Of a stretch of 32,930 nucleotides of DNA, positions 14,304-30,748 are shown in pieces. Within the stretch, counting starts at the first letter, position 1. The number at the start of each line of letters is the position of its first letter. The stretch covers positions 1-32,930 of the forward strand of contig NZ_MBKP01000020.1 of NCBI RefSeq assembly GCF_002243045.1, in the 5' to 3' direction. The stretch comes from Methanolobus psychrotolerans. Its GTDB lineage: Archaea > Halobacteriota > Methanosarcinia > Methanosarcinales > Methanosarcinaceae. Below the pieces are notes generated by a model. That model was given only the letters and a program-made list of their open reading frames with translations. It was not told where the DNA came from and did not search any database. The translations under genes were made by a program, and so were the position numbers.

Positions 14304-14403
14304 TGGAGACTTTTTGCCAGTCACAAAAGTAAGGCCTTGCAAGCGACATATGCACGGGAATGAGGGAAAAGGCACCTACATACAACCATAAGGGTGAAAA
14401 ACA

Positions 14404-28133: not shown

Positions 28134-28607
28134 CTAGGATTGTGCTATCCCTCGCCTGACATCAACCGCAGGACCCCTGCCCATACGAATGGCCTCATGA
28201 GGAGATAACAGTAACTGACCAGTTGCCAGGATTTCATCTGAAGCGTCAACAACTATCACTTCATCACCTGCACGGAGGTCAGGGTCCACATCTACCACGT
28301 GTTTGGCAAAAGTAGTCTTACCTTTTGATACAAAAGGTACTGCATCTTCACAAATGACAACCCTTGAGGCAGGTTTTTCAAGCATCCCGTGTAAGGCAAC
28401 AGCACCATCGATACTCAAAGTCAGCATACCATCCTTGGCACGAATGGTTGCCATATGCTTCCCATTATACAGGACCTGTCTGATGCGCTTGGTTTTGGAA
28501 AGCTGGAAAGTAACACCATCAGGAAAAAGAACTTCTCCACAACCTTTTCCGAACTGGATATCGGCCATTATTCTTACTTTTTTGAGATTTTTATCAGCAT
28601 TGCTCAT
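28134..28607 (-). CDS. PUA-domain protein
   Basis: The 157-residue product ends in a PUA domain (about residues 75-150: GKTTFAKHVVDVDPDLRAGDEVIVVD ... ILATGQLLLSP), a fold that binds RNA in archaeosine and pseudouridine enzymes. The N-terminal half (FPDGVTFQLSKTKRIRQVLYNG) resembles the pre-PUA region of stand-alone archaeal PUA proteins. No catalytic domain is present. The start is uncertain: ATG 28607 or ATG 28568 (MADIQFGKGCGEVLF). The gene ends in TAG; readthrough would add only four codons before TAA. RNA binding is likely, the target is unknown. Confidence 0.82.
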   Translation of the reverse strand: MSNADKNLKKVRIMADIQFGKGCGEVLFPDGVTFQLSKTKRIRQVLYNGKHMATIRAKDGMLTLSIDGAVALHGMLEKPASRVVICEDAVPFVSKGKTTFAKHVVDVDPDLRAGDEVIVVDASDEILATGQLLLSPHEAIRMGRGPAVDVRRGIAQS

Positions 28608-28728
28608 AGATGCTAAATAAAGTATAAGTATTAAATTGATAGCGGTTAATTAAGATGGTTGATACGAACTGCTGGCCTTTATGATAGAGAGTTAATATGA
28701 TGAGGTATATAAATAATGTCAAACAGAT

Positions 28729-28738
28729 TTATATATAA
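28729..28738 (+). promoter_or_regulatory. TATA element of the putative small RNA gene
   Basis: TTTATATATA at 28729-28738, preceded by purine-rich AAACAGA (a BRE-like context), is about 25 bases before the hairpin at 28758, the normal archaeal spacing. A second TATA-like sequence lies at 28706-28714. Confidence 0.55.
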
Positions 28739-28756
28739 TAATGACTAATTATAAGT

Positions 28757-28886
28757 TGAGGAAACAGGAACAACTGCTTGTAACTGTATTCAAAGGTATA
28801 GTAACTGTAACCAAGCAAAACCATTCATCCCCTCAAACATGTTCCTGTTTCCTCGTTGCTCAATTATTTGAGTAAAACTGTTTTTT
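28757..28886 (+). ncRNA. Putative structured small RNA with long closing stem and U-rich terminator
   Basis: GAGGAAACAGGAACA (28758-28772) is the perfect complement of TGTTCCTGTTTCCTC (28840-28854). Within it GCTTG (28776-28780) pairs with CAAGC (28812-28816), and ACTGTA (28783-28788) pairs with TATAGT (28797-28802) with one G-U, around an eight-base loop. After the closing stem comes a small hairpin (CTCAA 28859-28863 / TTGAG 28868-28872) and TTTTTT (28881-28886), resembling a terminator. A TATA box lies 25 bases upstream. No protein frame fits. I recognise no known RNA family; the inverted repeat could instead be a transposon remnant (flanked by GTT on both sides). Confidence 0.6.
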
Positions 28887-28917
28887 GGATTTTATGTTAG
28901 TTGGAACCCTATTATTT

Positions 28918-28925: not shown

Positions 28926-29119
28926 GTAACTATTCAGCCTATCCATATCAGCCTATTGATGCTGATTCGGTTAAAATTGAGAAGTTTAGTCCTAAATTAA
29001 TTTGAAATGCAAAACGAAAGCAAGTGGTACAATTAAAATAAATGTAGCGTAAGAAATTCACGTATCAACTTTTTATCACAACGGTTATTGATGGTGATTC
29101 TATCAGGCTGAATAGTTAC
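28926..29119. mobile_element. MITE-like non-autonomous element (194 bp) with 15-bp terminal repeats
   Basis: GTAACTATTCAGCCT (28926-28940) is the exact inverted complement of AGGCTGAATAGTTAC (29105-29119), and the element is flanked by perfect 8-bp duplications. There is no coding frame inside; near the left end ATCAGC (28947-28952) and GCTGAT (28961-28966) form a small hairpin. Ends starting GTAA with 8-bp target duplications are typical of IS66-family elements, so an IS66-type transposase elsewhere is the likely mobiliser (inference). It sits in the gene-free stretch between rtcB and the PUA gene. Confidence 0.75.
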
Positions 29120-29127
29120 GTTTAATT
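29120..29127. repeat. Target-site duplication, right copy
   Basis: GTTTAATT, identical to 28918-28925, directly follows the right terminal inverted repeat. Confidence 0.75.
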
Positions 29128-29169
29128 TATAATTTAAAACATAAAAAAAGGTAGCCAGAATAAACAAAA

Positions 29170-30636
29170 TTAACCTTTGACTACCCCCATTGGAAGGACA
29201 CGTGCAACTTTTGTGGCAATACCAAGGTTGTGTACAACATCAACAACATCACTGCTGGATTTGTATACCTCTGGGGCCTCCTCGGCGATAAGTGAAGGCT
29301 GGGTTGCCCTTACAATGATCCCCTGTGACTTTAACTCTTTCTGAATCTCTTCACCACTCAACTCGTGCTTTGCACTCTTGCGGCTCATGACCCTTCCTGC
29401 ACCATGACAGGCACTGCCAAATGTGATGTCCATTGCTGCAGGGCATCCTTTCAGGATATAGGAGGCTGTGCCCATGCTTCCGGGGATGATGACAGGTTGT
29501 CCTATACTGCGATAATCTTCAGGGACTTCCGGATGACCTGCCGGAAATGCACGTGTGGCACCTTTTCTGTGAACGTAGACCTCTTTCTGTTCACCATCTA
29601 TGGTGTGTTTCTCAAGTTTTGCAACGTTATGAGCAACATCATAAACAAGGTCAAGACCAAGGTCACCAAATTCATCTTTAAAGAAACGGTCAAACACTTC
29701 ACGTGACCAGTGCATTATCACCTGACGGTTGACCCATGCATAGTTTGCCGCACATATCATTGCCTTGAAATAGTCCTGTGCTTCCTCAGACTCAGCAGGA
29801 GCACATGCAAGCTGCTTATCTGGAAGGGTTATCTTATACTTCTTCGAAGCCTGGGCTAGGACCTGCAGATGGTCCGTACATATCTGGTGGCCTGCCCCAC
29901 GGGAACCACAATGAATCATAAAAGTAACCTGGCCTTCCTTAAGACCAAATGCCCTGGCTGCTTCCTCATCATACACCTTATCAACATACTGCACCTCAAG
30001 GAAATGATTGCCGCTTCCAAGGGTCCCAAGCTGTGGCCTTCCCCTTTTGCGGGCCTTTATACTAACCTTTGAAGGATCAGCACCAGGCATTGTACCGTTG
30101 CTCTCACAATGACTTACGTCTGCCTCTACACCATATCCGTTTACAACAGCCCAGCGCACGCCATGTATAAAAATATCATCGAGTTCTTTATCATTGACCC
30201 TTATACGACTCTTTGAGCCAACACCGGAAGGTATGGCTTCAAACAAGGCATCCAACAATTCTGGAAGTTTCGGACGGACATCCCCCTCGGACAGATTGGA
30301 GCGTATGAGGCGCACTCCACAGTTGATATCAAAACCAACCCCCCCGGGGCTTATTACTCCTTTATCCTTATCAAAGGCCGCAACCCCCCCAATAGGGAAA
30401 CCATAACCCAGATGAGCATCAGGCATTGCCATGGAATATTTCTGTATGCCCGGAAGAGAAGCTACGTTTGCAACCTGGTCGAGAGTTTCTTTTTCAAGAA
30501 TATCAAGAAGGGTCTTTGATACAAATATTCTCCCGGGGACATTCATACCAGGTTTAAAGTTTCCGGGCAACTCCCATGTGTTATCATTGATCTTTGTAAG
30601 AATATCATAAACTGAATTTACATTTGCCTCTGACAT
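29170..30636 (-). CDS. rtcB: RNA-splicing ligase RtcB
   Basis: RtcB joins 2',3'-cyclic phosphate or 3'-phosphate ends to 5'-OH ends using GTP and Mn2+, completing tRNA splicing in archaea. Motifs visible include [29 protein letters not shown] (metal Cys), [20 protein letters not shown] and CHGAGR (the guanylylated-His region). About 488 residues, with no intein. The ATG at 30636 is preferred because AGAGGA lies before it; the longer start at 30654 contains that site within its codons. It lies 112 bases downstream of the archease gene on the same strand. Confidence 0.96.
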
Positions 30637-30748
30637 AATTATTCCTCTTGCCATATTTGTCCTGTAAAATGTGATATGAAGACTATATGCGCTAATCTTA
30701 TGAATACATTGATAATAAGAAACTGATAAAACTGGTATGCAACGATAT

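Follow-up and report, generated by a model that had tools for sequence, protein, structure and literature searches.

A predicted small RNA gene of Methanolobus and related methanogens whose product probably acts in trans on the leader of a winged-helix protein gene

We report a predicted small RNA gene of methane-making archaea, present in Methanolobus and seven other genera, whose product we read as a trans-acting antisense RNA dedicated to essentially a single target, of which it would be a probable translational repressor; judged from sequence, we put the probability of this reading at roughly 80%. The gene lies in a 32,930-nucleotide contig of Methanolobus psychrotolerans (NZ_MBKP01000020.1; the whole of this stretch is referred to as the window). 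A C-rich unpaired stretch of the RNA, CCAUUCAUCCCCUCA (28821-28835), complements hairpins in the leader of a gene for a winged-helix protein, and it is very probable that the RNA regulates this gene through base pairing. The features of the window are as follows.

28134-28607, minus strand: flanking gene for a TGT C2/PUA domain protein (Pfam, synteny), divergent from the RNA
28706-28717, plus strand: second TATA-like element, TATATAAATAAT, conserved across Methanolobus in alignments
28720-28739, plus strand: likely core promoter, BRE-like CAAACAGA and then TATA box TTTATATATAAT (alignments; fixed distance in homologues)
about 28757-28888, plus strand: full transcript of the small RNA, ~130 nt, as predicted from the sequence
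28757-28856, plus strand: conserved body of the small RNA (covariance model R1, 108.6 bits, E 2.7e-24 within the window)
28758-28772, plus strand: 5' arm of the closing stem (15/15 complementarity, compensatory changes)
28775-28817, plus strand: inner stem-loop with the UGCUUG/CAAGCA helix (fold); Methanolobus has an additional internal hairpin at 28783-28802
28819-28839, plus strand: single-stranded antisense stretch AACCAUUCAUCCCCUCAAACA (predicted unpaired probability 0.91-1.0, near-invariant in homologues)
28840-28854, plus strand: 3' arm of the closing stem (15/15 complementarity, compensatory changes)
28856-28886, plus strand: weak hairpin and T6, presumed terminator (fold, T-run conservation)
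29170-30654, minus strand: flanking gene for the RtcB tRNA-splicing ligase, rtcB (Pfam, synteny), convergent with the RNA

An earlier note on this DNA had described a complete-looking small RNA gene of no known class in a 562-base gap free of protein frames, with a TATA element, a perfect 15-bp closing stem, two nested inner helices and a hairpin followed by a T-tract. The gap, between frames ending at 28607 and starting at 29170, has exactly that length, and no reading frame of at least 80 amino acids was found within it; homologue alignments contain indels inside the RNA that are not multiples of three, and no conserved reading frame. The closing stem (28758-28772/28840-28854) is complementary at all 15 of its positions, and both inner helices were located, at 28775-28780/28812-28817 and 28783-28790/28795-28802. 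The 181-nt sequence folds with a predicted energy of -45.1 kcal/mol as compared with -25.7 ± 3.4 kcal/mol for dinucleotide shuffles (z -5.7), none of 200 being equally good. A search of Rfam 15 (4227 families) yielded no match at gathering score, in agreement with the note, and at a permissive threshold only chance-level matches to unrelated families, the highest sub-threshold match over the small RNA being SpF43 (18.5 bits against 70). Elsewhere in the gap, near the 3' end of rtcB, positions 29084-29165 gave a sub-threshold C/D-box snoRNA-like match (22.8 bits against 43), which is probably due to chance.

The conserved TATA box, TTTATATATAAT at 28728-28739, is preceded by the BRE-like stretch and starts 30-31 nt ahead of the stem in almost every one of the 61 homologues, so that transcription should begin at the foot of the stem, at about 28756-28758. 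The TATA box at 28706 that the earlier note had assigned to this gene is too far upstream and probably not its own; the element at 28706-28717 begins ~22 nt ahead of the likely promoter box and is possibly a regulator site or a second promoter. At the other end of the gene, the described hairpin (28856-28863/28868-28875) and T-tract (T6 at 28881-28886) are both present, but the hairpin is the least conserved part of the small RNA, and it is the T-run that is kept: a run of T4 or longer lies within 45 nt of the stem in 55 of 61 homologues. The fold, the fixed promoter and the covariation described below support the reading of a complete, albeit predicted, small RNA gene.

By BLAST, the small RNA was found in 26/26 other genomes of the genus at 85-97% identity, and it occurs in further genera of the family as well. 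Scanning named genomes for an exact pattern recovered it from Methanolobus, Methanohalophilus, Methanohalobium, Methanosalsum, Methanococcoides, Methanomethylovorans and ANME-3 mud-volcano genomes. A covariance search in Methanosarcinaceae, which the earlier note had proposed along with a look for compensatory changes in the stems, was conducted with a model built from 42 distinct sequences and returned exactly one orthologue in each of 65 of 112 genomes, in 8 of 14 genera; no match was obtained in Methanosarcina-type genomes (4-6 Mb; G036, G099-G102). Most of the loci inspected in other genera keep the position seen here, upstream of the PUA gene and on the 3' side of rtcB, this synteny being masked in a few by contig ends or rearrangement. 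The compensatory changes were found as well. Standard pairs make up 93.2% of the cells of the drawn structure, falling to 37-56% when the partner is slid by 1-3 columns, and 19 stem cells are changed on both sides, as compared with a shuffled mean of 7.3 and with 0/500 shuffles reaching 19; these cells affect six pairs, a number equalled by 29/500 shuffles. A long perfect inverted repeat in an AT-rich gap might also be a transposable repeat or arise by chance, and many genomic copies would have spoken for the former; every genome that carries the RNA has just one copy of it, and its orthologous position, stem covariation and core invariant over eight genera make such an origin barely conceivable.

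The most conserved part of the small RNA is the unpaired (A)AAACCAUUCAUCCCCUC (28817-28834), within an unpaired region of 22 nt between the inner stem-loop and the 3' arm. The antisense stretch is invariant across the 42 distinct homologues, many of which were selected by that motif, and is altered only in G097 among 61 genomes read. The named-genome set was picked by an exact pattern over this stretch, and its invariance there is therefore partly by construction; the BLAST and covariance-model sets were not selected in this way, and only G097 differs in them. A second near-invariant stretch, ACUGUAAYCAAGC, is found at 28803-28815 (ACUGUAACCAAGC) and is conserved even where its inner UGCUUG partner is lacking (the Methanohalophilus type); pairing with the leader leaves it unexplained.

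Short BLAST matches to the antisense stretch in other genomes fall in the leader of one gene, which is present in every Methanolobus genome. In M. psychrotolerans this gene is on a separate contig from the RNA (C59:13415-14326, minus strand; L119), and positions 28821-28835 of the RNA would pair with UGAGGGGAUGAAUGG in its leader, which holds two sites 35 nt apart, TGAGGGGATGAATGG (14348-14362) and TGAGGGGATAAATGG (14383-14397). Pattern searches, as distinct from a full target scan, located exact TGAGGGGATRAATGG in the 3.16-Mb genome only in the complement of the RNA and in the two tandem leader sites. The RNA-leader duplex has a predicted energy of -32.6 kcal/mol, as compared with -28.5 kcal/mol for the best of 502 background stretches and -25.4 kcal/mol for the best of 300 shuffled leaders. 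Across the 55 genomes with both pieces measured, the longest Watson-Crick run between RNA and leader is 10-20 bp (median 15). All 58 leaders read harbor at least one GAGGGGAU loop and nearly all carry two; the leader of G098 carries the sites, and some genomes have one good site only. Departures at single positions of the target are often A to G, whereby G-U pairing is preserved, with the exception of an A-C mismatch in Methanolobus site 1 (GAUAAAUGG) and two mismatches in Methanomethylovorans site 1.

Each site is part of a hairpin with an outer stem (ACCAU/AUGGU; AUCCAU/AUGGAU), an inner UC/GA step and a UGAGGG loop. In 51 distinct leaders, 95.2% of the hairpin cells pair, as compared with 22-56% when slid, and six cells are changed on both sides, all in the second hairpin. 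The hairpins constrain the sequence, and part of the conservation of the sites could be conservation of the hairpins. We also considered, by inspection of the leaders, whether the loops are kink-turns (C'/D'-like CUGA...GAUGA), and set this reading aside since several leaders depart from the motif, with CAGA in G090 and G095, GAUAA in Methanolobus site 1 and GAGAA in G130; as almost all leaders keep GAGGGGAU, antisense pairing accounts better for the loop core. Small upstream frames that begin within the hairpins were not regarded as coding, because their frame relative to the gene varies by species (by eye).

The RNA and the target gene are inherited together. The winged-helix domain and the RNA each occur in 65 of the 112 family genomes, with 63 in common; the RNA is present without the gene in G131 and G134 (60% and 83% complete), and the gene without the RNA in G060 and G061 (75-76% complete). 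When considering genomes of at least 90% completeness and at most 5% contamination, 56 have both and 30 have neither, with no discordance. Within the family, the target gene occurs in the RNA-carrying genera only, plus g23, which is represented by incomplete assemblies. G060 and G061 (leaders L217 and L215), which represent one genus, have the target gene with both hairpins, the RNA being undetected; we predict that the RNA lies in the missing part of these assemblies, between the PUA gene and rtcB.

The two partners have also changed together. In the Methanosalsum-type genome G097 the RNA reads CCGUUCAUCCCCUCAGA, in which CCAUUC, kept in the other 60 genomes, has become CCGUUC, and leader site 2 has UCUGAGGGGAUGAACGG, which matches the RNA of the same genome perfectly over 17 bp. 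With the PUA gene and rtcB on either side, this RNA is the orthologue, and since the change is matched inside the leader hairpin too, both partners moved together; G097 is the only natural case of such a compensatory change between RNA and target. Three of the features by which a trans-encoded antisense RNA is recognized are present, namely a predicted promoter and terminator of its own in an intergenic gene with no conserved frame, an accessible stretch complementing the leader of a gene elsewhere and conserved beyond chance, and, in one instance, a compensatory change. A structural or protein-binding RNA (riboswitch-like, ribozyme or scaffold), for which the leader match would be secondary, might better account for the almost invariant inner helix (columns 22-26/60-64 of alignment A2, 100% of cells paired, nearly no variation) and ACUGUAAYCAAGC, which exceed the needs of a simple antisense presenter. 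We regard it as very unlikely, given that the RNA has its own promoter and terminator with no downstream gene on the same strand and fits no Rfam class, and that the complementarity to tandem sites, the perfect co-occurrence and the matched change in G097 would be left unexplained.

Instead of having essentially one target, the antisense RNA could act more broadly on ribosome-binding sites that are G-rich, ftsZ being a second target. In the Methanolobus genomes checked, the ftsZ ribosome-binding site, GUGAGGGGAUGAA, has 12-14 nt complementary to the antisense stretch, and AUGGUUACAGU, upstream in many Methanolobus ftsZ leaders, complements another conserved part of the RNA. However, GAGGGGAU(GAA) precedes ftsZ in genera lacking the RNA too, including the Methanosarcina type, and in other families, so that no small RNA is needed to explain the motif, which is not evidence for regulation. 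Broad targeting is further disfavored by the presence of just eight GAGGGGATGA sites in the M. psychrotolerans genome, in the RNA, leader site 2, ftsZ, two transposase-like leaders, two coding frames and one frameless position. Matches in a dihydroorotase-like frame (C79:12229) and other coding frames were taken as chance. We therefore dropped ftsZ, promising within Methanolobus and unsupported once the motif was seen in RNA-less genera, and consider broader targeting improbable. In the same genome, the ftsZ leader at C105:5400-5414 (L123, L139) has GTGAGGGGATGAA at the ribosome-binding site, and one Methanolobus subclade has ATGGTTACAGT upstream, both of which match the complement of the RNA; the first is shared with RNA-less genera.

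For the preferred reading, antisense pairing with the leader of the winged-helix gene, we propose that the stem closes an RNA of ~130 nt and thereby leaves CCAUUCAUCCCCUCA exposed after the inner hairpin and before the 3' arm, that this stretch pairs with one or both of the tandem hairpins in the target mRNA, and that pairing probably starts at the UGAGGG loop, from where it would extend along the 3' strand of the hairpin stem. A median of 22 nt separates the end of the nearer site from the start codon, and ~10 nt separate it from the AGAGG ribosome-binding site; a duplex so close would most likely impede binding of the 30S subunit and thereby repress the protein. The same pairing could have the opposite sign, the RNA opening or shielding the leader hairpins and so activating translation or stabilizing the mRNA. 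Methanosarcina mazei sRNA154 is reported in a review to act in the latter way on the nifH, nrpA and glnA1 mRNAs (PMC5867862), the predicted pairing disrupts the 3' side of both leader hairpins, and the ribosome-binding site falls outside the duplex. Nevertheless, the site is already mostly open before pairing (median unpaired probability 0.71) and is not opened further by it (0.68-0.70), and the duplex is within reach of an initiating 30S subunit; we consider activation unlikely. No consistent change in the predicted accessibility of the ribosome-binding site on pairing was found, which makes a direct ribosome block likelier than a switch and leaves the repression reading resting on nearness.

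The target protein (~300 residues) is predicted to consist of an N-terminal beta-beta-alpha unit, a Q/P-rich stretch modeled with low confidence and a C-terminal winged helix near residues 203-280, of which ~210-280 are modeled with high confidence. In a structure comparison, residues 211-281 aligned with Fur (9ire_B; Z 9.5, rmsd 2.6, 70 aligned), with which many winged helices, including PadR, tie; by the predicted model, the C-terminal domain belongs to the winged-helix fold. Searches of Pfam/NCBIfam gave weak winged-helix matches only, with Penicillinase_R below the cut-off, and a PDB sequence search with a winged-helix profile returned nothing significant. Judged from this model, the protein is likely a transcription regulator. 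Its gene is flanked by a divergent PAN gene and, downstream, by two small membrane-protein genes and uvrB, the names PAN and uvrB having been read from the sequence by eye. We tentatively suggest, as something close to an even bet, that RNA and gene form a one-RNA/one-target pair kept as a unit over eight Methanosarcinaceae genera including ANME-3, in which tandem receiver hairpins with the same loop would read RNA dose by being occupied singly or together, and in which the target, with its long Q/P-rich and probably disordered region, may be a master regulator.

A target is known for only a few archaeal small RNAs, and all the methanogen examples that we found belong to Methanosarcina mazei. 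Among these, sRNA162 is 191 nt long with three stem-loops, has homologues that its authors found only in Methanosarcina, and pairs through a variable linker with the adjoining MM2441 (ArsR family), covering the ribosome-binding site, from which translational repression was inferred (PMC3510493). The present RNA resembles sRNA162 and sRNA171 in being an archaeal trans-acting candidate in which an unstructured stretch between stem-loops would pair with the mRNA of a DNA-binding protein (PMC3510493). It differs from sRNA162 in its length (~130 nt), its one closing stem, its locus between the PUA gene and rtcB and its absence from Methanosarcina-type genomes, as well as in having its pairing stretch as the most conserved part and its target on another contig; we rejected homology with sRNA162 on the published description (PMC3510493), distribution and position. 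M. mazei sRNA154, which targets nif/gln genes, and sRNA41, which targets ACDS operons (reviewed in PMC5867862), are likewise encoded between genes in a methanogen and act in trans, on leaders or ribosome-binding sites; compared by description only, each has several targets, whereas here one stands out. The closest mechanistic parallel, by analogy and not by kinship, is RNAIII and rot mRNA in Staphylococcus aureus, where C-rich unpaired letters contact two G-rich hairpin loops in the leader of a regulator mRNA and both contacts are needed for repression (PMC2837412). RNAIII is bacterial, much longer and multi-target, and uses several hairpin loops, whereas here one stretch matches both sites; RNAIII contacts leader and ribosome-binding site, while the nearer site here is upstream of the ribosome-binding site. 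Trans antisense RNAs are thus already known in methanogens, and what stands out in the present one is a single, deeply conserved target with a doubled receiver. A study of Methanolobus psychrophilus R15 reports 195 intergenic start sites, and passages of its main text name no such RNA or target (PMC5378194); the present RNA may be among those sites.

The predicted pair combines target conservation and exact sites with a compensatory change that arose in nature and a clear-cut pattern of presence and absence. It lends itself to tests of antisense control in Archaea and gives access to a winged-helix protein, so far unstudied, of methylotrophic methanogens and ANME-3. Lastly, a transposase-like gene present in at least two copies (C50:3361-3370, C51:1413-1422; L201, L202) has TCATCCTCATGATCATCTGAGGGGATGAAT in its leader, in a hairpin that shares the GAGGGGATGAAT motif with the target of the RNA.
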